Source of the DNA: Leeia oryzae DSM 17879
GTDB lineage: Bacteria > Pseudomonadota > Gammaproteobacteria > Burkholderiales > Leeiaceae
Length of the DNA stretch: 64,000 nt
Direction of reading: 5' to 3'
NCBI RefSeq assembly: GCF_000376945.1
Contig: NZ_AQXU01000022.1
Location: 62,001-126,000 of the forward strand
This document shows, piece after piece, positions 13,021 to 27,119 of this stretch. Below the pieces are notes generated by a model that saw nothing but the letters and a program-made list of their open reading frames with translations, did not search any database and had not been told where the DNA came from. How positions within the stretch are numbered: the first letter of the stretch is position 1; each line of letters begins with the position of its first letter. The position numbers and the translations under genes were made by a program.

Positions 13021-14478
13021 TCAGGCACCCCATTTCGGGATCGGATGGCTGCCGTAAGACACGGCCACGTTCTTCGCTTCGCAGAACACTTCGTAACTGT
13101 AGTGGTTGCCCTCGCGTCCGGTGCCGGATGCCTTGACGCCACCAAACGGCTGGCGCAAGTCACGCACGTTCTGGCTGTTGACAAACGTCATGCCGGCTTC
13201 GATGGCTTTGGCCATGCGCATCACGCGGCCGGTGTTTTCTGTCCACAGGTAAGAAGACAGGCCGTATTGGGTATCGTTGGCAATGCGCAGTGCTTCCTCT
13301 TCGGTCTTGAAGCGGATAATGCACGGTACCGGGCCAAAGATTTCGTCCTGGGCAATCTTCATCTTGTTGTCGACATCGGCAAACACGGTCGGTTGCACCC
13401 AGTTACCGCCTCGCAGGTGTTCGGCCACATTCGGCGTATCGCCACCAAAGACCAGTGTCGCGCCTTCTTTCTGACCCAGTTCGATGTAACCGTTGACCTT
13501 GGCCTGATGTCCCTTGCTGATCATCGGGCCGATGATGGTGTTCGGGTCCAGTGGGTCGCCCACCGTCAGGCGGGCGGCACGGGCCGCAAAGTCCGCCACG
13601 AATTTGTCGTAGATACCGTCTTGCACCAGAATCCGAGAACCGGCAGTACAACGCTGGCCGTTATTGGAGAAGATCATGAAAATGGCGGCATCCAGCGCGC
13701 GTTCGTAGTCGGCATCGTTAAAGATGATGAACGGCGATTTGCCGCCCAGCTCCATGGAGAACTTCTTCAAGCCGGCCGATTTCACGATGCGGTTACCGGT
13801 GAGCGTGCTGCCGGTAAAAGAAATGGCCCGGACATCCGGGTGGCTGACCAGCGGCTCGCCCGCGGTGTTGCCGTAACCGTGCACGATGTTGAACACGCCG
13901 GGCGGAATGCCGGCTTCCAGCACCAGTTGCCCCAAGCGGTCTACCGTCATTGGCGATAGTTCGGACATCTTCATCACCGCCGTGTTACCAAACGCCAGGC
14001 ACGGGGCAGTTTTCCAGGTGGCGGTCATGAAAGGCACGTTCCAGGGGGAAATCAGTGCCACTACGCCTACCGGTGTCCACAGGGTGTAGTTCAGGTGGCC
14101 GGTGTCAGAGTCGTAAGTCTCGCCATGCTGATGCTGGATCAGCTCGGCAAAGTAATGGAAGTTGTCTGCCGCGCGCGGAATCAGCGCTTTTTTGGTCTGG
14201 CCGATGACCTGGCCACAGTCGTTGGTTTCCATCTCGGCCAGTTCCGGCACGTTCTTGGTGATCAGGTCACCCAGGTTACGCATCAGACGAGCACGCTCTT
14301 TCACGGGCGTGGCGGCCCAGCCAGGGAACGCGGCTTTGGCGGCAGCCACTGCTGCGTTGACTTCGGCCTCACCACCGCTGGCCACGTCGGCCAGTACTTC
14401 ACCGGTCGCCGGGTTGAGGGTCTGGAAAGTTTCCTGGCTGTCTACCTGCTGGCCATTGATCAGATGCTTGATCATCAT
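13021..14478 (-). CDS. hpaE: 5-carboxymethyl-2-hydroxymuconate semialdehyde dehydrogenase HpaE
   Basis: NAD-dependent aldehyde dehydrogenase of 485 residues that oxidises the ring-cleavage product. It matches enterobacterial HpaE along its length, including LNYTLWTPVGVVALISPWNVPFMTATWK (written here in part: ISPWNVPFMTATWK), the MELGGKSPF glutamate motif, the NNGQRCTAGSRI catalytic cysteine and the end HPIPKWG. The start overlaps the hpaG2 stop as ATGATGA, showing translational coupling; the second ATG (14475) is equally possible. Confidence 0.95.
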   Translation of the reverse strand: MMIKHLINGQQVDSQETFQTLNPATGEVLADVASGGEAEVNAAVAAAKAAFPGWAATPVKERARLMRNLGDLITKNVPELAEMETNDCGQVIGQTKKALIPRAADNFHYFAELIQHQHGETYDSDTGHLNYTLWTPVGVVALISPWNVPFMTATWKTAPCLAFGNTAVMKMSELSPMTVDRLGQLVLEAGIPPGVFNIVHGYGNTAGEPLVSHPDVRAISFTGSTLTGNRIVKSAGLKKFSMELGGKSPFIIFNDADYERALDAAIFMIFSNNGQRCTAGSRILVQDGIYDKFVADFAARAARLTVGDPLDPNTIIGPMISKGHQAKVNGYIELGQKEGATLVFGGDTPNVAEHLRGGNWVQPTVFADVDNKMKIAQDEIFGPVPCIIRFKTEEEALRIANDTQYGLSSYLWTENTGRVMRMAKAIEAGMTFVNSQNVRDLRQPFGGVKASGTGREGNHYSYEVFCEAKNVAVSYGSHPIPKWGA

Positions 14479-15251
14479 GCTGCGTTCTCCTTCAACATTT
14501 GTTCGTATGCTGCTTCGCTGACAATGCGGTTTGCCAGACGGCCTACCTGTTCCACTTCTACCTCTACCAGATCGCCCGGCTGCACGTCCGACAAGCCTTC
14601 CGGCGTGCCGGTGCAGATCATATCGCCGGGGTTCAGGGTCATGAAGCTGCTCAGGTAAGACACCAGAAACGGCACGTCAAAAATCAGGTCTTTGGTACTG
14701 CCTTCTTGCCGCAGCTCGCCATTCACATAGGTGCGTAGCGTCAGGTTATGCGGGTCGGCCACGTCTGCGGCATCTACCATCCACGGGCCGATGGGGGTCA
14801 GCGTGTCGCGGCTTTTGACGCGCAGGTTAGGGCGGTAGTAGTTTTCCAGGTAATCGCGCACGGCGTAGTCGTTGCACACGGTGTAACCACCTACGTACTG
14901 CATGGCGTCTTCACGGCGGACGTTTTTAGCGGTTTTGCCAATCACCACCACCAGCTCGGCTTCGTAATGCATGTATTCAAGGTTATCCGGACGGACCGAT
15001 ACCTGGTTATGACCGGTGAGGGTGTTCGGGCCTTTGATGAACACCAGCGGTTCGGTGGGGGCCTTGAAGTCCAGCTCGGCAGCGTGGTCGGCATAGTTCA
15101 GACCCAGTGCAAAAATTGTGCCGCTGGCGGGGGGGAGCCACGTTACATCGGTGGCGTTCAGCCGGGTGCCATCGCTCAGGGTCAGCGCATTGGCATCGTC
15201 AACGGTGGCCTGGTACACGCGGTTCTGATAACGGACGGTAGCGTGCTTCAT
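14475..15251 (-). CDS. hpaG2: 5-oxo-pent-3-ene-1,2,5-tricarboxylate decarboxylase-type half, HpaG2
   Basis: FAH-fold protein of 258 residues corresponding to the C-terminal half of enterobacterial bifunctional HpaG: FALGLNYADHAAELDFKAP, MHYEAELVVVIGKTAKNV (acidic metal ligands present) and FMTLNPGDMICTGTPEGLSDV. It decarboxylates the tricarboxylate and helps isomerise the product to 2-oxo-hept-4-ene-1,7-dioate. It overlaps hpaG1 and hpaE by ATGA on both sides, so G1-G2-E are translated as a coupled block. Confidence 0.93.
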   Translation of the reverse strand: MKHATVRYQNRVYQATVDDANALTLSDGTRLNATDVTWLPPASGTIFALGLNYADHAAELDFKAPTEPLVFIKGPNTLTGHNQVSVRPDNLEYMHYEAELVVVIGKTAKNVRREDAMQYVGGYTVCNDYAVRDYLENYYRPNLRVKSRDTLTPIGPWMVDAADVADPHNLTLRTYVNGELRQEGSTKDLIFDVPFLVSYLSSFMTLNPGDMICTGTPEGLSDVQPGDLVEVEVEQVGRLANRIVSEAAYEQMLKENAA

Positions 15252-16000
15252 GCGCGGGCTCCTTTTTCTGCCACAACGGTGTTTTCCAGACGGCCGATCT
15301 GCTCGATCTCGACAGTGACGGTGTCGCCTGCTACCAGCGCCACGTCCCGCAAGCCGGTGCCGGTGATGATCAGATCGCCCGGTTCCAGGGTCAGGAAGTT
15401 GCTGATGTATTCGATCAGGGCCGGCACGCGGTGAATCAGGTCGGCTGTATTGCCGGTCTGGCGCAGTTCGCCATTAACGAATGTTTTGAGGGTCAGGGCC
15501 GTGACATCCACGCTGTCTGCACTGACCACCCATGGACCGACCGGGCAGAAGGTATCGCGACATTTGGCCTTGATGGCAGGGCGGTAATAGCTGGTTTCGG
15601 CCAGGCTGACTTCGTTGACCACGGTATAACCGGCCACGTACTGCATGGCATCTGCCTGCATAACCTTGCGTGCCTGCTTGCCAATGACCACGCCGAGTGC
15701 AGCGCCTGCATAGGCGGTTTCACCGTCTGCGGGGACTTCAATCACCCCCTGATGGGCATTGTGGGTATTTACCGGCTTGAAGAAGTACACCGGTGTCTTG
15801 GGCGGCGTTTTGTAAGGGGCTTCCTGCAGAGAAGGCGCCAGACGGTTCATGAGCGGGCGATTGTTGAGGGCCACGCCAATGTAGGTGCCTTCTGTGGCGG
15901 GTAGCCACTGGTAATGCCCCGGCTCTGCTGCAGGAGTGCCGCTCGGGTCGACGGCAACGGTCTTGATGATGCCGTTTTGAAGAATCCTTGCCTTTTTCAT
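15248..16000 (-). CDS. hpaG1: HpaG1, N-terminal-half homologue of bifunctional HpaG
   Basis: FAH-fold protein of 250 residues matching the N-terminal half of enterobacterial HpaG (GVALNNRP, PVYFFKPVNTHN, SYYRPAIKAKCRDTFCPVGPWV). The EAEL metal motif of HpaG2 is replaced by AGAALGVVIGK, as in the N-half of fused HpaG, so the loss is family-typical rather than a lesion. It is the first gene of the operon and lies directly behind a strong promoter with a palindromic operator (16063-16105). Confidence 0.92.
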   Translation of the reverse strand: MKKARILQNGIIKTVAVDPSGTPAAEPGHYQWLPATEGTYIGVALNNRPLMNRLAPSLQEAPYKTPPKTPVYFFKPVNTHNAHQGVIEVPADGETAYAGAALGVVIGKQARKVMQADAMQYVAGYTVVNEVSLAETSYYRPAIKAKCRDTFCPVGPWVVSADSVDVTALTLKTFVNGELRQTGNTADLIHRVPALIEYISNFLTLEPGDLIITGTGLRDVALVAGDTVTVEIEQIGRLENTVVAEKGARA

Positions 16001-16033
16001 GCTGTCTGGCTTTCTTTCGATGTCGGATGGGGG

Positions 16034-16048
16034 CTGATCATTGATCAG
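16034..16048. promoter_or_regulatory. Perfect 7-1-7 inverted repeat in the hpaG1 leader
   Basis: CTGATCA-T-TGATCAG lies between the transcription start and the hpaG1 start codon. It could be a second regulator site (HpaA, HpaR or cAMP-independent factor) or an RNA hairpin. No factor is assigned. Confidence 0.4.
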
Positions 16049-16062
16049 GTAATCCCGATAAA

Positions 16063-16105
16063 GTTAACATGTTAACGTTATACGATCGCCAAAATGAAAT
16101 GTCAA
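16063..16105 (-). promoter_or_regulatory. hpa operon promoter with overlapping dyad operator (probable HpaR site)
   Basis: On the minus strand a TTGACA (-35, 16105-16100) and TATAAC (-10, 16082-16077) are separated by exactly 17 bases. Directly downstream, at the expected start of transcription, lies the perfect 14-bp palindrome GTTAACATGTTAAC (16063-16076). MarR-family HpaR repressors bind dyads overlapping the start of the meta-cleavage promoter in E. coli, so HpaR encoded at 17039 is the likely ligand; that is inference. Confidence 0.75.
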
Positions 16106-16260
16106 TCAGCTGGCGCATCGGTCTGCCGATATTGGATAGTCATGCTATTGACGCTATAGATAGGCGTTGTGTTAAATTGACACTGTCTTGAAACTGCACC
16201 GGTTATCGCTGTTTCAGGGGCATTATTTCCCCTGTCATCGGGGATGGTGATCAGTCAAGA

Positions 16261-16279
16261 TTTAATATGTTAATGATAT
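16261..16279. promoter_or_regulatory. Second, weaker hpa dyad
   Basis: TTTAATATGTTAATGATAT matches 15 of 19 positions of the operator-plus-minus-ten block at 16063-16081 and keeps a TTAA-4-TTAA dyad. It faces the DUF336 gene at 16390, which would place that gene under the same regulator. No clear promoter was found beside it. Confidence 0.5.
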
Positions 16280-16389
16280 TGCCTGGGCGGGTGGTCATGC
16301 GATGTCAGGTCTTTTAGGGTTTTCACGAGCTGTAGCGCCTTGGCCGCCCGTCAGTATTCTGCCGGCGCGGCGTTTTTTTGGAGGCATTC

Positions 16390-16833
16390 ATGCTGGAAGC
16401 AAAACAGGTACTCACGCTCAGTGCAGAGACTGCCAATGCGCTGGTAACCGCGGCGCTAGCGCGTGCGCAACAGGATGGGCTGAATGTCTGTGTGGCGGTG
16501 GTGGATCATGCCGGACATCTGCTGGCATTTTTGCGTAGCGCGCAGGCGCCTTTGCATTCCACTGATATCGCCATTGATAAAGCCTATACCGCAGTCAGTT
16601 TTTCCAGAGCGACCCATCTGTGGGAGCCGCGTCTGGCAGAAGCGGGCCAGATGCTGAAAATGGGTCTGGCCAACCGTCCGCGGTTTGTCGGGTTTGGGGG
16701 CGGTTACCCGATCATGATCAGCGGCATGGCGGTAGGCGGTATAGGGGTTTCTGGCGGGACAGAGACACAAGACATGGTCTGTGCAACGTTTGCGCTGGAT
16801 CTGGTCAGTGCCGGCGGAAAAGTTACGCGGTAG
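16390..16833 (+). CDS. DUF336 (GlcG/HbpS-like) protein
   Basis: The 147-residue product has the GlcG/HbpS fold signature: ANALVTAALARAQQDGLNVCVAVVDHAGHLLAFLR, then AIDKAYTAVSFSRAT and GGYPIMISGMAVGGIGVSGGT. Family members occur in many catabolic operons and some bind haem or corrinoids, but the catabolic role is unknown. No signal peptide, so cytoplasmic. The start at 16390 follows TTGGAGGCATTC. It is divergent from the hpa operon, shares the intergenic regulatory region and may be coregulated. Another member of the family is at 57181. Confidence 0.85.
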   Translation: MLEAKQVLTLSAETANALVTAALARAQQDGLNVCVAVVDHAGHLLAFLRSAQAPLHSTDIAIDKAYTAVSFSRATHLWEPRLAEAGQMLKMGLANRPRFVGFGGGYPIMISGMAVGGIGVSGGTETQDMVCATFALDLVSAGGKVTR

Positions 16834-17038
16834 CGTCTGCTGTCGTGTGGGTGGGTATCGGATGAGCAGCAAGTCTAGCCGCAGTTTGATGCCGGTCAAT
16901 TATCTTAATGAATGGTGGCTGTCGGGGTATAAGACCATGTTTGATGATATGCATTATCTGGCCCTAAGGCATATATTTACTGACTTTTCTGGATTTGGTG
17001 CTATCATTTTATTTCGATATGAATAAAAAGCAAACGCA

Positions 17039-17500
17039 ATGAAAAAACTGCATACTTCACTGACCATCGCCCTGTTAAGGGCCCGTGAGACGACCATGGG
17101 CTTTTTTCGCCCTTTGCTCAACAAGCACGGCCTCACAGAGCAGCAGTGGAGAATCATGCGGGTGCTGGCCGAGAAGAACACCATGGAATTCCAGCATCTG
17201 GCCGATCTGACCTGCATCTTGCGTCCCAGCATGACCGGCATTCTGACCCGCATGGAAAGGGATGGACTGGTCATCAAGCTCAAGCCGACATCAGATCAGC
17301 GCAAAATCTACGTCGCCCTGACCGAGCACGCCCAGCAGATGGTCGAAAACATGGCAGATGAAGTTGCAGAAGCCTATCGCCAGCTGGAAGACCAGTTAAC
17401 AGTAGAAAAAATTGACCAGCTGATGGCCTTGCTGGAAGAGGTCAGCCAGCTCAAGATACCAGAGCAGGAAGACGATACTCAGGAAACCGAAGCTGCCTGA
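17039..17500 (+). CDS. hpaR: MarR-family repressor HpaR
   Basis: The 153-residue protein aligns with E. coli HpaR from the start (SLTIALLRARETTMGFFRPLL, LTEQQWRIMRVLAEK) through the winged helix (LRPSMTGILTRMERDGLVIKLKP). HpaR represses the homoprotocatechuate operon and is relieved by 4-hydroxyphenylacetate or its hydroxylated relatives. It is cotranscribed with hpaA, 38 bases downstream. Its likely operators are at 16063-16076 and 16261-16279. Confidence 0.93.
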   Translation: MKKLHTSLTIALLRARETTMGFFRPLLNKHGLTEQQWRIMRVLAEKNTMEFQHLADLTCILRPSMTGILTRMERDGLVIKLKPTSDQRKIYVALTEHAQQMVENMADEVAEAYRQLEDQLTVEKIDQLMALLEEVSQLKIPEQEDDTQETEAA

Positions 17501-22314: not shown

Positions 22315-22347
22315 AAGTTGTATTGCTGATGCAACATACCGCATAAT
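22315..22347 (+). promoter_or_regulatory. nsrR promoter with NsrR-type operator
   Basis: A 9-5-9 dyad, AAGTTGTAT and ATGCAACAT (22315-22337), overlaps the -35 TTGTAT (22318-22323) and the spacer to a -10 CATAAT (22342-22347, 18-base spacing). It ends 44 bases before the nsrR start codon. The geometry equals that of the E. coli NsrR 11-1-11 site, and the half-sites differ by one or two bases, so it reads as an autorepression site. Confidence 0.7.
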
Positions 22348-22380
22348 GAAATATTCAATGTGTCATTTTGAGTCATTCGC

Positions 22381-22854
22381 ATGCTGCTCACCAAATTTAC
22401 GGATCTTGGACTGCGTATCCTGCTTTATCTTACCCATCAGGAGCGTGATCTTCCTGTGACTATCGGGGAGATTGCACGTCAGTTTGAGGTGCCGCATAAC
22501 CATTTGATCAAGGTGGTGAACCGTCTGGGCAAACTGGGCTGGATTCAGGCTACCCGTGGCAGAACGGGGGGGCTCAAGCTGTCCGTCAATCCGGCATCCC
22601 TGATGCTGGGAGATGTGATCGCCCAGCTGGAAGGGCATACGGAGCTGATCAATTGTGCAGCCCAGCCGTGTGCGCTGCACGGCAACTGCCTGCTGAAATC
22701 TGCGCTGGATGATGGTTTGCGTGCGTTTTATCAGCAAATGAATCGCTACAGCCTGACCGATGTGACAAAAAATCCGACCGGAGAAATCATCATCCGCATG
22801 CACCACCAGTTTGTTGGTGGCGCGTCTGTACCCGTGTCTCCATTGTCTTCTTGA
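22381..22854 (+). CDS. nsrR: Rrf2-family nitric-oxide-sensing repressor NsrR
   Basis: The 157-residue protein starts MLLTKFTDLGLRILLYLTHQE and has the Rrf2 winged helix (TIGEIARQFEVPHNHLIKVVNRL) and the iron-sulfur ligands NCAAQPCALHGNC (C-x4-C-x5-C, near 99-110) spaced as in NsrR rather than IscR. NsrR holds an Fe-S cluster that reacts with NO, releasing repression of NO-defence genes. Its own promoter and the downstream oxidase promoter both carry matching 9-5-9 dyads. Confidence 0.92.
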   Translation: MLLTKFTDLGLRILLYLTHQERDLPVTIGEIARQFEVPHNHLIKVVNRLGKLGWIQATRGRTGGLKLSVNPASLMLGDVIAQLEGHTELINCAAQPCALHGNCLLKSALDDGLRAFYQQMNRYSLTDVTKNPTGEIIIRMHHQFVGGASVPVSPLSS

Positions 22855-22913
22855 TCCTGATGGCGGTGTTTACCGCATCGGATGCCTTCTTTTGTCTATT
22901 TCCTTAGCTGACT

Positions 22914-22952
22914 AACTTTTTAAGTTGCATCTTATTTACAACTTAAAAAGTT
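22914..22952. promoter_or_regulatory. Long inverted repeat overlapping the first NsrR site
   Basis: AACTTTTTAAGTTG (22914-22927) and its exact complement (22939-22952) are separated by 11 bases. The repeat arises partly from the two tandem NsrR sites and would allow two repressor dimers to sit on neighbouring turns. Confidence 0.6.
22922..22944. promoter_or_regulatory. NsrR-type operator 1 upstream of the oxidase operon
   Basis: 9-5-9 dyad AAGTTGCAT / TTACAACTT. The left half-site is identical to that of operator 2, whose centre lies 26 bp downstream. Confidence 0.7.
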
Positions 22953-22970
22953 GCATGTAGGATGCAGCTT
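22935..22970 (+). promoter_or_regulatory. Oxidase operon promoter with NsrR-type operator 2
   Basis: TTTACA (22935-22940) and TAGGAT (22958-22963) are spaced by 17 bases. The second dyad AAGTTGCAT (22948-22956) / ATGCAGCTT (22962-22970) covers the -10, and operator 1 covers the -35, so NsrR binding would block RNA polymerase. Both half-sites differ from the E. coli consensus halves by one base. Confidence 0.7.
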
Positions 22971-23036
22971 TTGTGGGGCGGCTAGCCATACAGTTACCGC
23001 CACCCTTGTCAAAAAAACAGAACAAGGCACCTTTCC

Positions 23037-24662
23037 ATGAATGTCCTCGCAATCCTGTTGTCTGCCTTCATCATTGCCATCATCGGCTTGATGTTCTTCA
23101 TCTGGTCACAGCGCAAAAGTCTGGTCGATGGTGGTGATGCTGCAGCACGGGTTATCTTTGGTGCTGATGAAGTCGGTACCATCGAAGATCCGTCTGCCAC
23201 ACCTGCCAACCGCAAGATCCAGCAAACCCATCTTTATTCACACACTGCACCTGGCCACCGGATCAGTGACGAAGACCTGCAGGTTCGCATTCGTGCGGAC
23301 CAGTCGAGCGCCCGTGTCACGCTGGCATTTTTCTGTATGGCCATTTTCTGGTTGCTGGTCGCATCGGCGTTCGGGCTGATCAGTTCCATCAAGCTGCATG
23401 AGCCGGACTGGCTGACGCAATCTCAATGGCTGACCTTTGGCATTACCCGCACGCTGCACCTGAACGTGGTGGCCTATGGCTGGGCGCCCATGGCGGCGCT
23501 TGGTGTATGTAACTGGATGCTGCCACGCTTGCTGAAAACGCCGCTGGCTGGCGCACGTTACGCCATTGCCGGGTTGATGATCTGGAATGCGGCGTTAATC
23601 GCCGGGCTTGTCGGGATTGCCAACGGTTACAACACTGGGCTGGAATGGCTGGAAATACCGTTGCCAATTGCCGTCTGGCTGGCCATTGGCGGTGCCTTGA
23701 TCGGCATGCCGCTGGTGGTGACCCTGCAGCAGCGCAAAGTGGCGCATTTATATGTATCGGTCTGGTACATGGGGGCGGCGCTGTTCTGGTTTCCGGCGCT
23801 GTTGATCATCGCCAAACTGCCCATCCATCACGGGATCGAGCAGGCGACTGCCAACTGGTGGTTCGGCCACAACGTACTTGGTTTGTTTTATACGCCATTG
23901 TCCCTGGCCTCCATTTATTACCTGCTGCCAAAAGTCATCGGCAAACCGGTCGAGTCTTATAACCTGTCGCTTGTCGGTTTCTGGACGCTGGCATTTTTCT
24001 ATGGGCAAGTGGGTGGTCATCATCTGATCGGCGGGCCTGTCCCTGGCTGGCTGATTGCACTGTCGATTGTGCAAAGCATGATGATGCTGATACCGGTTGC
24101 TGCATTTTCCATCAACCAGCATCTGACAATCCGCGGGCACTTCCATATGCTGAAGTATTCTCCCACGCTGCGTTTTATTGTCCTGGGCGGCATGATGTAC
24201 ACGCTGAGTTCCGTGCAAGGTTCTTTCGAAGCGCTGCGCTCGATGAATACCGTCACCCATTTCACGCACTTTACGGTTGCGCATGCCCATCTGGGGCTGT
24301 ACGGCTTTGTCTCGCTGGTCATGTTTGGTGCCATTTATTTCATCATGCCGCGCATTACCAACTGGGAGTGGCCATATCCGGGCCTGATTGCGCTGCATTT
24401 CTGGCTGGTTGTCCTGGGGTTTGCCATCTATTTTGTAGCCTTGACCTCGGCCGGCTGGATGCAGGGCAAGTACATGCTTGATGCCAGCCGTCCTTTCATG
24501 GATTCCGTCCATGTAACCCAGCCCGGTCTCATCGGGCGTTCGATTGGCGGTGCCATCATGACCCTGGGGCATCTCGTTCTGGCGGTGCATTTTGTATTGA
24601 TGCTGCGCCGTTCTGGCCCCAGACGTGAGTCTGCAGCCATTCTGAATCAGGCATCTGCTTAA
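23037..24662 (+). CDS. cbb3-like haem-copper oxidase subunit I with CcoS-like N-terminal extension
   Basis: The 541-residue membrane protein is the catalytic subunit. Haem and copper ligands are visible: His141 (TLHLNV), His278 (FGHNV), His328-His329 (GGHHL), His416 and His418 (AHAHLG). Tyr322 sits six residues before the HH pair, as does the cross-linked tyrosine of CcoN, so oxygen chemistry is likely. The first ~80 residues are extra relative to CcoN: a membrane helix followed by FFIWSQRKSLVDGGDAAARV-IF, which resembles CcoS, a small assembly protein normally encoded separately. The first gene of an operon preceded by two NsrR-type operators. An NO-tolerant or NO-responsive terminal oxidase is the best reading. 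Confidence 0.88.
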   Translation: MNVLAILLSAFIIAIIGLMFFIWSQRKSLVDGGDAAARVIFGADEVGTIEDPSATPANRKIQQTHLYSHTAPGHRISDEDLQVRIRADQSSARVTLAFFCMAIFWLLVASAFGLISSIKLHEPDWLTQSQWLTFGITRTLHLNVVAYGWAPMAALGVCNWMLPRLLKTPLAGARYAIAGLMIWNAALIAGLVGIANGYNTGLEWLEIPLPIAVWLAIGGALIGMPLVVTLQQRKVAHLYVSVWYMGAALFWFPALLIIAKLPIHHGIEQATANWWFGHNVLGLFYTPLSLASIYYLLPKVIGKPVESYNLSLVGFWTLAFFYGQVGGHHLIGGPVPGWLIALSIVQSMMMLIPVAAFSINQHLTIRGHFHMLKYSPTLRFIVLGGMMYTLSSVQGSFEALRSMNTVTHFTHFTVAHAHLGLYGFVSLVMFGAIYFIMPRITNWEWPYPGLIALHFWLVVLGFAIYFVALTSAGWMQGKYMLDASRPFMDSVHVTQPGLIGRSIGGAIMTLGHLVLAVHFVLMLRRSGPRRESAAILNQASA

Positions 24663-24674
24663 TCCGAGGTCATC

Positions 24675-25310
24675 ATGCATAGCGAAACGAAACTCCTTGT
24701 CGGCAGTTCTGTGATTCTCAGCCTGGCGATAACCGCACTCGTTGCACTCCCTTATCTGCAAGAAGAAGACAGCCATCCGCCTGCCGGACTGATGCCGTAT
24801 ACGGATCAGCAACTGCGCGGGCGGCAGGTATATATCGAAAATGGCTGCATTGCCTGCCACTCCCAGCAGCCTCGTACCCGTTTGCAGGCCCCCGACTTTG
24901 ATCGCGGCTGGGGCAGGGCATCGACTGCCGATGACTATTTCTATGACAAACCCACCCTCCTGGGGACCATGCGTACCGGTCCGGACTTGTTCAATATCGG
25001 GGCACGCCAACCCAGCAAGGACTGGCATCTTGGCCATCTTTACCAGCCAAGGGCGTATACCCAGGGCAGCATCATGCCGGCTTATCCTTTCCTGTTCATA
25101 CTGAAGAACAAGGCATCGCCGGGCGACACCGTGGTCAATTTGCCGCCAGCCCAGGCCATACCGGGGAAGGTCGTCATCGCCAGACAAGAAGTGCTGGATC
25201 TGGTCACGTACCTGCAGGGAATGGATCACACCTATCCAGTCGACAAGCTGCCTAACCTCCCTGAGGTGGATAAGGGCACATCCGGCCAGACATCAACGGG
25301 GAGCAAATGA
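24675..25310 (+). CDS. CcoO/FixO-like membrane monohaem cytochrome c
   Basis: The 211-residue protein has one N-terminal membrane anchor (about 8-27) and a periplasmic haem domain with CIACH (Cys58, Cys61, His62). MPYTDQQLRGRQVYIENGCIACHSQQPRT, TGPDLFNIGAR, WHLGHLYQPRAYTQGSIMPAYPF are CcoO hallmarks, including the methionine haem ligand. It passes electrons to subunit I. It follows the oxidase gene by 12 bases and its end overlaps the next cytochrome gene by ATGA. Confidence 0.88.
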   Translation: MHSETKLLVGSSVILSLAITALVALPYLQEEDSHPPAGLMPYTDQQLRGRQVYIENGCIACHSQQPRTRLQAPDFDRGWGRASTADDYFYDKPTLLGTMRTGPDLFNIGARQPSKDWHLGHLYQPRAYTQGSIMPAYPFLFILKNKASPGDTVVNLPPAQAIPGKVVIARQEVLDLVTYLQGMDHTYPVDKLPNLPEVDKGTSGQTSTGSK

Positions 25311-25903
25311 TGAAGAAACTGACGGAGAAACCCCGGGCCCAAACCCGCGAGAATCCTGACCCGGAAGAACAGATCCGCCCCGTGCCGTGGGTATTGCTGA
25401 TCGGCATTGCCATTCTGTTTACCTGGGCGGTTGTCTACATTGCCACCACTGATCTGACCGGGCCGGCAAACTGGGGGGACCAGCGTACGCTCGCGGACCT
25501 TGGCAAACCGGCCGGGCAGAAAGTAGATGGCGCGGCGCTGTTTACAGCCAATTGCGCTGCCTGTCATCAGGCATCCGGGACAGGTGTACCTGGCGTATTT
25601 CCGCCATTGGCCGGCTCAGAGTGGGTCAATGGAGAACCCAAGGTCATCGCGCAGATTTTGTTGCATGGCATTAATGGCCCATTAACCGTCAAAGGGGCTA
25701 CTTACCATGGGCAGATGCCAAACTTTGGTGGCAAATTCAAGGACGAAGAAATCGCCGCGGTGCTGACGCATGTCCGTAGTCAATGGGGCAACCAGTCTCC
25801 GGCGGTTGATACGGATACCGTGAAAAATGCCCGGGAGACGTCTAAAGACCGAACACAACCCTGGAATGGCGATCAGGAGCTGAATGCCCTGAAAACCAGA
25901 TAA
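25307..25903 (+). CDS. Membrane-anchored monohaem cytochrome c (CcoP-like half)
   Basis: The 198-residue protein has an N-terminal cytoplasmic stretch, a helix at about 25-45 (PWVLLIGIAILFTWAVVYIATT) and one class I haem site (ANCAACHQASGTGVPGVFPPLAGS). Canonical CcoP has two haems; here only one is present, so the electron-input subunit is reduced. LLHGINGPLTVKGATYHGQMPNF carries the distal ligand region. Translationally coupled to the previous gene. Confidence 0.87.
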   Translation: MMKKLTEKPRAQTRENPDPEEQIRPVPWVLLIGIAILFTWAVVYIATTDLTGPANWGDQRTLADLGKPAGQKVDGAALFTANCAACHQASGTGVPGVFPPLAGSEWVNGEPKVIAQILLHGINGPLTVKGATYHGQMPNFGGKFKDEEIAAVLTHVRSQWGNQSPAVDTDTVKNARETSKDRTQPWNGDQELNALKTR

Positions 25904-25917
25904 TCCGCTTCCAGATC

Positions 25918-26532
25918 ATGGGCAGAACCTTATTCTTGACCTTGGCGTTACTGGCGGGAGCCCTAATGGCCGCTAGCGCATGTACCATGGGGTTTCGCGT
26001 ATGGACATCAGAGTCTGCCAGGCGCTTGTCCGTTCGCCAGGCGCCGCCAGCGGTACCCGCTACCGCGCTGACGTTGACAGATGGTACGCCGGTGGTACTG
26101 GACCAGTGGCTGGCGGCACAGCGCCGGGTAACCATTGTCAGCTTCATTTACACGCGTTGTAACAGCTTGTGCACGGTACTGGGGAATGAATTCCAGCAAT
26201 TGCAGGCCCGGATTGTGGAGCTTCATTTGCAGCATCGCGTGCAGTTACTGAGCATCAGTTTTGATCCGCAGGGAGATACGCCAGACCGGATACGCACTTA
26301 CGCCCGTGCCATGGGGGCGAATCCGGCCATATGGCAGTTTGCACGGGTACAGCGTGCAGCTCAGTTGCAGCATCTGCTCAATGCCTTTGGCATCGTCGTG
26401 ATACCTGATCAGCAAGGCGGGTATGTACACAATGCCGCGTTGCATCTGCTAGACCGGCATGCCCGGCTTGTGGATATAGAAGATCTGGATGCGATACAGC
26501 AAACGCTGATCAATGCGGAGGCACTCCCTTGA
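25918..26532 (+). CDS. SCO1/SenC/PrrC-family copper chaperone
   Basis: The 204-residue protein has an N-terminal membrane anchor and a thioredoxin fold with the copper-binding CxxxC (SFIYTRCNSLCTVLGNEF) and a distal histidine (GGYVHNAALHLLD). SCO proteins deliver copper to oxidases or control thiol redox state, which fits assembly of the CuB site of the upstream oxidase. It overlaps the next gene by four bases. Confidence 0.88.
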   Translation: MGRTLFLTLALLAGALMAASACTMGFRVWTSESARRLSVRQAPPAVPATALTLTDGTPVVLDQWLAAQRRVTIVSFIYTRCNSLCTVLGNEFQQLQARIVELHLQHRVQLLSISFDPQGDTPDRIRTYARAMGANPAIWQFARVQRAAQLQHLLNAFGIVVIPDQQGGYVHNAALHLLDRHARLVDIEDLDAIQQTLINAEALP

Positions 26533-27119
26533 AACGTTTGATTTCCCTGGCAGATGCATGGGCCGGCAAACCTGCGCTGGCACTGTGGGCCGGGGTACTG
26601 TTGATGGGGGCAGCCATTGTCGGGCATGCTGTTCTGGAAGCCAGTATGGTGCTGCACATGCTGGTACAGTTTCCCTTGCTGATGCTGGGGGCTGCGCTGC
26701 TTGTGGATGCACTGCCTGCTACCAGCCGGAACAGACTGGGTAGTTTTAACCAACTAGGGATTTCCGGCCTGACATTTGCGGTCTTGATCAGTAGCGTATG
26801 GATGATTCCAAGAGCGCTTGATCTGGCCGTGCAGGTGGGTTGGGTGGATGGATTGAAAATACTCACGTTACTGCTCGCCGGCATGGCTGTCCGGCTTTCA
26901 TGGCCCAGGGCGGTACTGTCATTACAGGCTTTTTTTCTGATTGGCTGGGCCATGATGACCGCGACCATCGGCCTTCTGTATCAGGAAGTCCCCATGCGCC
27001 TTTGTACCAGCTATTTGCAGGATGAGCAGACCAATGCCGGGATAGGGCTGGTGGCCTTGTCGGGGAGTCTTGTACTGGTCTGGTTTGGTCAGAGCCTAAG
27101 GCGCAAATCCTCAGTCTGA
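26529..27119 (+). CDS. Hypothetical multi-pass membrane protein of the oxidase operon
   Basis: The 196-residue protein has about six hydrophobic segments (15-35, 42-62, 75-95, 108-125, 133-153, 170-188) and a histidine-rich start of helix 2 (GHAVLEASMVLHMLVQFPLLMLG), which could bind metal or haem. Its position last in the operon, coupled to the SCO gene, suggests an assembly or accessory role. It resembles the copper-related CtaG-like membrane proteins only loosely; family not recognised. Confidence 0.75.
   Translation: MKRLISLADAWAGKPALALWAGVLLMGAAIVGHAVLEASMVLHMLVQFPLLMLGAALLVDALPATSRNRLGSFNQLGISGLTFAVLISSVWMIPRALDLAVQVGWVDGLKILTLLLAGMAVRLSWPRAVLSLQAFFLIGWAMMTATIGLLYQEVPMRLCTSYLQDEQTNAGIGLVALSGSLVLVWFGQSLRRKSSV

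Follow-up and report, generated by a model that had tools for sequence, protein, structure and literature searches.

A divergent C-type haem-copper oxidase operon of Leeia oryzae associated with the operator-like dyads of an NsrR ortholog group

Why would a terminal oxidase operon stand behind a regulator of nitric oxide (NO) defence? The question is raised by a locus in a 64,000-nucleotide stretch of Leeia oryzae DSM 17879 (contig NZ_AQXU01000022.1, positions 62,001 to 126,000; hereafter the window), in which nsrR, a ccoN-like gene, a fixO-like gene, a cytochrome c gene, a SCO gene and a membrane protein gene follow one another at positions 22315-27119. The source genome comprises 3.79 Mb in 25 contigs and is 99.97% complete. 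A preliminary description of the locus had proposed that three dyads place the oxidase under direct NsrR control, making it NO-inducible and perhaps NO-tolerant. Comparison with related genomes gives good support to NsrR regulation of this locus, which we read as a divergent C-type oxidase recruited into a regulon of the NsrR/hmp type, with a physiological role that we infer to be oxygen (O2) reduction in the presence of NO.

Dyads, regulator and operator

Three dyads of 9-5-9 geometry lie at the locus, one before nsrR and two before the oxidase operon, as had been described. They match the consensus AAGTTGCAT-N5-ATGCAACTT on the forward strand with one or two mismatches, and the chance expectation for such dyads in the window is 0.07 (100 dinucleotide shuffles, largest count 1). 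Dyad 1 (AAGTTGTATTGCTGATGCAACAT, 22315-22337, two mismatches) ends 43 bp before the nsrR start, while dyads 2 (22922-22944, two mismatches) and 3 (22948-22970, one mismatch) form a tandem between nsrR and ccoN with centres 26 bp apart. Dyad 2 covers the -35-like hexamer and dyad 3 the -10-like hexamer of a possible sigma-70 promoter of the oxidase operon (TTTACA-17-TAGGAT, 22935-22963, forward strand), so that the described overlap with this promoter was recovered, at a site which is weak and comes from a promoter scan giving 2 sites in the region against 1.1 in shuffled sequence. A further overlap, of dyad 1 with the -35 of nsrR, was not recovered, as the scan found no sigma-70-like site at that dyad.

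The regulator, here called NsrR2 (22381-22854, forward strand), was identified by Pfam, NCBIfam, alignment and its orthologs. It scores 105 bits against Pfam Rrf2, and its best NCBIfam family is NsrR with 104.9 bits, below the equivalog cut-off of 182. The alignment shows three cysteines spaced C-x4-C-x5-C, which we take to be the NsrR iron-sulphur cluster signature, and the ortholog group has two further features of the NsrR class, namely 9-5-9 operator-like dyads and NO-detoxification neighbours.

Among 399 genomes sampled from the order, 38 (the source genome included) contain an NsrR2 ortholog (threshold E 1e-30). Flanks of about 4 kb in either direction were taken for 18 of the 37 orthologs from other genomes (48-63% identical), consisting of the 16 best-scoring ones, G204, and G267, which was chosen for its strict dyad; several of the 18 share one genus or family and are not independent. 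With the wider consensus (≤3 mismatches), a dyad is found within 130 bp upstream of 15/18 orthologs, whereas 200 draws of random stretches from these loci gave 0.375/18 on average and never more than 4. The flavohaemoglobin gene hmp lies within 1 kb of 17/18, full length in 16, and 11 of these 17 hmp neighbours have a dyad upstream; leaving out G267 gives 14/17 for the dyad and 16/17 for the hmp neighbour. A globin-like gene also adjoins 8/18 orthologs. NsrR was the best NCBIfam match for both orthologs scanned as well, and the four hmp proteins scanned had "NO-inducible flavohemoprotein" as best family, one above the cut-off and three just below. The remaining hmp neighbour (L203:4060-4338, in G248) comprises the first 93 residues of hmp beside nsrR2, as if cut by insertion, next to ORFs that are presumably phage-like.

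The strict dyad (≤1 mismatch) occurs at six places in the 399 genomes and a reversed control pattern at one. Besides the window, these places are about 15-40 bp before the NsrR2 orthologs of G022, G278 and G267, and, in G006, 42 bp upstream of a qNOR-type gene, which has COX1 and NorB cytochrome c-like domains in Pfam; the sixth, in G035 near a Bro-N phage-type gene, is taken as chance. Another Rrf2-like gene is located beside the qNOR-type gene (L212:4380-6727).

On comparative grounds, the GTTGCAT-type dyad is the operator of the NsrR2 ortholog group. NsrR control of the oxidase operon is strongly supported by the same comparison, the dyads marking NsrR2 ortholog promoters, hmp genes and a qNOR-type gene. 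The control first proposed is to this extent supported, and inducibility by NO would follow from it as a prediction.

A second NsrR-like protein of the source genome (L091) is likewise under the equivalog cut-off and has the three cysteines at the aligned positions. About 95 bp upstream is a dyad of the classical form, AAGATGTAT-N5-ATGCATGTT, with one mismatch. The genome thus has two NsrR paralogs, whose promoters carry different half-sites. A divergent FeS_assembly_P gene is found beside the second paralog (L143; own genome C23:22593-23098). The beta-proteobacterial NsrR regulon, as given in Rodionov 2005 (PMC1274295), similarly has an Rrf2 repressor, an N5-centred dyad and hmp, nnrS and norB as targets; its consensus is gATGyAT-N5-ATrCATc, whose half-site gATGyAT differs from the GTTGCAT of NsrR2. 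The term cbb3 is absent from the main text of that paper.

Dyads with up to three mismatches occur at five places in the source genome, comprising the three in the window, C25:509650 (two mismatches) and C19:94725 (three). The C25 dyad lies approximately 108 bp upstream of the likely ATG of a globin-like ORF, which barely exceeds the Pfam Bac_globin cut-off (21.7 versus 21) and which we take to be a group III truncated haemoglobin. In the surrounding segment (L144:4695-7158), this gene is divergent from an FAD oxidoreductase gene, presumably sulphide-quinone-reductase-like, which is followed by a rhodanese-like ORF; the dyad sits between the two divergent genes and could serve either side. Hmp was not found in the source genome, where flavohaemoglobin matches cover residues 156-394 only, the reductase half. 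Since no hmp was found, the oxidase and the globin-like gene appear to fill the hmp slot of the regulon in this genome.

The sole ortholog not beside hmp is that of G336 (87% complete, 7% contamination), which faces the end of the oxidase operon's last gene in convergent orientation; the ortholog match spans one stop near the end, and the ORF has 149 residues. The oxidase contig of G336 equals locus L005 over 3,408 bp. L005 contains the closest ccoN relative (74%), directly preceded by a globin-like gene whose product is 59.5% identical to that of the source genome. G336 also has weaker dyads (2-3 mismatches), upstream of nsrR2, of the unit formed by the globin-like gene and ccoN, and of an hmp gene located elsewhere.

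Class and active site of the oxidase

Profile matches bear out the gene content of the preliminary description: nsrR, a haem-copper oxidase, two cytochromes, a SCO protein and a membrane protein, all on the forward strand. The oxidase subunit I (23037-24662, 541 residues) was recognised by the COX1 profile, active-site alignment and fold. A scan of named genomes gave 97 relatives, and the analysis retained the top 80, which are 58-74% identical; the genus names among them are beta-proteobacterial. The oxidase is present in 21 of the 399 genomes sampled from the order (E 1e-140). All five operon genes occur in order at 73/80 loci. Among the seven incomplete loci, L005, L015 and L043 end at a contig edge, L058 and L063 stop no more than 0.5 kb beyond their last detected gene, and at L062 and L077 the remaining operon genes were not detected although the locus continues.

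The active site was assessed by aligning 81 sequences with the genome's own canonical CcoN and the NorB-like L087; residue roles are assumed and given in Pseudomonas stutzeri numbering. The six haem and CuB histidines and the cross-link tyrosine are kept in 81/81 sequences. The position of the NorB FeB glutamate holds Gly in 81/81, and none has the NO-reductase glutamate; Gly at this position and the retained tyrosine are at odds with the cNOR and qNOR classes. The Glu323 position, where the numbering agrees with an alignment to 3mk7 and where we assume the Glu that hydrogen-bonds the haem b3 His, holds Gln in 77/81, Glu in 3 and His in 1. That a highly conserved Glu of cbb3 oxidases makes this hydrogen bond is stated in an excerpt of PMC8398457.

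Subunit I scores 232.5 bits against the curated CcoN equivalog, under the cut-off of 583.15. In both sequence and fold searches, its best matches are CcoN chains of cbb3 oxidases, ahead of NO reductases. The structural model has a mean pLDDT (predicted local distance difference test) of 81.6, with low confidence at residues 326-339 and 402-413, around two active-site loops, and its best match is 3mk7. With the canonical cbb3 oxidase of P. stutzeri (CcoNOQP, 3mk7), the enzyme shares the fold of subunit I (TM-score 0.88, normalised to target length), the haem and CuB histidines, the cross-link tyrosine and a FixO-like mono-haem subunit. It differs from canonical cbb3 in being only about 30% identical, in a CcoS-like N-terminal extension, in one haem motif instead of two in the third subunit, in Gln for the conserved Glu323 in 77/81 sequences, and in having SCO and CtaG-like genes in the operon. 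There is also no gap for ccoQ between the window genes, ccoQ not having been sought elsewhere. By sequence criteria, this is a divergent C-type (cbb3-class) oxidase, filed as C-type rather than canonical cbb3 because the third subunit has one CXXCH motif, not two.

The CcoO/FixO-like mono-haem cytochrome c (24675-25310) was identified by profile match (PF02433, 115.7 bits) and CXXCH count, with one such motif in the window and in 79/79 complete ORFs. The third subunit (25307-25903, profile match) is a CcoP-like cytochrome c whose N-terminal part includes a hydrophobic stretch; it is mono-haem, with a single CXXCH in the window and in 78/78 complete ORFs, in place of the two haem motifs of a di-haem CcoP. 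It is followed by a SCO1/SenC copper chaperone with the motif CNSLC (25918-26532, profile match) and by a multi-helix DUF1404/CtaG-like membrane protein (26529-27119), whose family consensus contains HMLxExPLL. DUF1404 was matched by 34/58 members of this last family at E≤0.1 (best 1.1e-8) and CtaG by 2/58; the window protein has only weak DUF1404 similarity (E 0.0018, below the cut-off), and its model (pLDDT 94) found no PDB fold match at E 0.001.

Over roughly its first 45 residues, subunit I resembles CcoS/FixS: the profile-profile probability is 89% (E 2e-6 in one comparison), whereas four control segments from this operon give 0.3-28.5%; the single-sequence Pfam FixS match is below the cut-off (E 0.27). 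In G026 (L142:6791-8520), a separate ORF scoring as FixS (25.3 bits, cut-off 23.1) runs into the beginning of a gene homologous to ccoN (47% identical). This arrangement is consistent with a fusion of neighbouring genes having given rise to the CcoS-like N-terminus, G026 perhaps representing the unfused form.

A recent foreign origin of the operon was rejected, as its G+C content (0.561, versus 0.559 in the window) is the local composition, although two congeners have no such operon. Elsewhere in the window (13021-17500), aldehyde dehydrogenase and fumarylacetoacetate-hydrolase-type genes with a MarR regulator resemble an aromatic degradation cluster.

Proposed function and its alternatives

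Four full COX1 proteins are encoded in the genome, the NsrR2-linked subunit I among them. One belongs to a canonical cbb3 oxidase (ccoN above cut-off, with a FixS gene), and the sequences of the other two suggest an aa3 oxidase and an NO reductase resembling NorCB (L087), for which the NCBIfam scan names no NOR family. Since the genome has other oxidases and the NorCB-like pair, the enzyme seems unneeded for ordinary respiration or denitrification. O2 reduction during NO presence would be its simplest role, because an O2-type active site is combined with the operator of an NO repressor.

We consider it probable that the operon encodes an NO-induced, divergent C-type O2 reductase with its own copper helpers, in the regulon slot of hmp. 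NsrR at the dyads would repress nsrR and the oxidase operon, and attack by NO on its iron-sulphur cluster would relieve this repression. In the presence of NO, the oxidase could then reduce O2 with electrons drawn from cytochrome c, and it may consume or tolerate NO, with the truncated haemoglobin made together with it from the same operator. Copper insertion might be aided by the fused CcoS-like helix, the SCO protein and the CtaG/DUF1404-like protein. We offer a more far-reaching version tentatively: that a C-type oxidase lineage was recruited into an NO-defence regulon in replacement of flavohaemoglobin and, with the co-regulated truncated haemoglobin, respires, and perhaps removes NO, under NO concentrations too high for ordinary cbb3, helped by Gln for Glu in the surroundings of haem b3. 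It is plausible that the enzyme reduces NO as a side activity, given that the P. stutzeri cbb3 oxidase can reduce NO to N2O according to an excerpt of PMC8780969; the SAR11 cbb3 oxidase has also been suggested to be bifunctional (excerpt of PMC12816887).

The same P. stutzeri activity could be taken further, to an enzyme that is chiefly an NO reductase or scavenger, induced through NsrR for NO removal and reducing O2 only secondarily. The regulon partners hmp, globin-like genes and NnrS, and the failure to find hmp in the source genome, fit such a role. Against it stand Gly at the NorB FeB glutamate position together with the retained cross-link tyrosine throughout the 81 sequences, the best sequence and fold matches to CcoN, and a NorCB-like pair already present in the genome; the active-site residues led us to set this explanation behind O2 reduction, and we regard it as unlikely. 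Slightly more credible, and still doubtful, is that NO or nitrite only signals low O2 and denitrification, in which case the operon would supply an oxidase of high O2 affinity for passing between denitrifying and microoxic growth, with no special NO tolerance. C-type oxidases generally have a high affinity for O2, some carriers have names of denitrifiers (Denitromonas, Brachymonas denitrificans), and the NorCB-like pair is in keeping with such a life. A similar proposal has been made for the B-type sNOR of Nitrosomonas (excerpt of PMC6967387). Against it, the canonical cbb3 oxidase with its FixS gene is already present in this genome, and FNR/Dnr-type sites (≤1 mismatch) are rare near ccoN, occurring within 300 bp in 4/80 loci, on which FNR/Dnr control was rejected.

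It is very improbable that the dyads are chance, or answer another signal such as iron or sulphur, with NO having no part. Rrf2 regulators sense several signals and NsrR2 scores under the NsrR equivalog cut-off, but the position of hmp beside nearly all orthologs examined, the dyads at 11 of those hmp genes, and NsrR as best NCBIfam match for the window protein and both orthologs scanned argue for an NO regulator.

Reach of the NO link and relation to known systems

How far the proposed NO control extends across the oxidase family was assessed at the 80 loci. A wide-consensus dyad (≤2 mismatches) lies within 400 bp upstream of ccoN in 10/80, compared with 0.19 of 80 expected from the rest-of-locus rate and none in block shuffles. 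Within about 6 kb of ccoN (flank shortened in 12/80 loci), Rrf2 genes are found at 22 loci, NnrS at 12 (Pfam E 3e-101 for a representative) and globin-like genes at 13, together 24/80. Two of the Rrf2 proteins, L012 and L084, are of another type with a different N-terminal helix (MSKMAD), presumably resembling the SUF regulator; the three cysteines are present in all 22 rows and so do not separate them. Without these two, an NO-linked neighbour (NsrR-like, NnrS or globin-like) is present at 22/80 loci, and either a neighbour or a close dyad at 28/80. Apart from that of L005, the globin-like proteins are 25-35% identical to that of the source genome, and the representative L056 had no Pfam match at E 0.01. 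The neighbour label, assigned to the window and the 22 loci, needs 16 changes when mapped on the ccoN tree, and the dyad label 7; the NO association therefore arose or was lost many times.

Several observations weigh against the proposed role. No close dyad is found at ccoN in 70/80 relatives, nor, at ≤2 mismatches, in any of 13 further non-duplicate loci from a second search, where one dyad occurs at 3 mismatches and two loci have an nsrR-like gene nearby. There is no NO-linked neighbour in the flank covered at 58/80 loci (12 of the 80 having a shortened flank), and the sister loci of Silvimonas and Undibacterium have neither such a neighbour nor a close dyad. Conservation of the dyads in related genomes, which the preliminary description had made one of its tests, therefore holds for the regulator orthologs and for a minority of the oxidase loci, and general NsrR control of the whole oxidase family is not supported. 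G336, the only other genome found with NsrR2 and the oxidase adjacent, retains hmp with a dyad, and the oxidase therefore does not regularly take the place of hmp. In Paraburkholderia, a deeper relative is found together with a molybdopterin oxidoreductase, which argues that the oxidase lineage is not dedicated to NO. Deeper relatives (Paraburkholderia, Paracoccus, Indioceanicola, G026) also have Gln at the Glu323 position; the change is thus not tied to NO and, as an NO adaptation, was set aside and kept as a lead only. Canonical cbb3 is reported to be strongly inhibited by NO (Arjona 2015, as cited in an excerpt of PMC6472365), for which reason NO tolerance of the oxidase is only a prediction.

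The loss of hmp was also considered as a general partner of the oxidase. Twenty of the 21 oxidase-bearing genomes were surveyed, G392 being left out, and 17 of them lack hmp at E 1e-40, the three carriers being G336, G296 and G157. The same lack is seen in the two congeners that have no oxidase; without a base rate for the order, the count supports no conclusion.

Two side observations concern other members of the family. The Paraburkholderia relative is on a plasmid (L105:7947-14809), where it is accompanied by a P-type ATPase, the molybdopterin oxidoreductase and an additional cytochrome c, which hints at a different electron donor. GntR/aminotransferase (MocR-type) genes occur near ccoN at 27/80 loci (e.g., L071:4298-5737), 22 of them on the opposite strand, and such regulators might replace NsrR there.

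Among known systems, AOX is a di-iron quinol oxidase, unrelated to haem-copper oxidases and in this unlike the window enzyme. In Vibrio fischeri it is nevertheless a terminal oxidase within the NsrR regulon, being named as a target in Rodionov 2005 (PMC1274295) and in the title of Dunn 2010 as cited elsewhere. The sNOR of nitrifiers (norSY-senC) is likewise a haem-copper enzyme, linked to NO and accompanied by senC, and is proposed in an excerpt of PMC6967387 to be an O2 reductase for NO-rich, low-O2 conditions; it is B-type, whereas the window enzyme is C-type with FixO. No description of an NsrR-controlled C-type oxidase or of a CcoS-CcoN fusion was recognised in the open-licence PMC literature searched.

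Oxidases of the cbb3 class are regarded as very NO-sensitive, yet denitrifiers and soil bacteria meet NO and O2 together. The GTTGCAT half-site represents a second operator class for a defined NsrR ortholog group and can be used in regulon prediction. The locus is a direct case for asking whether NO changes the respiratory enzyme rather than only calling for NO destruction, and points to a way in which respiration may be sustained under NO.

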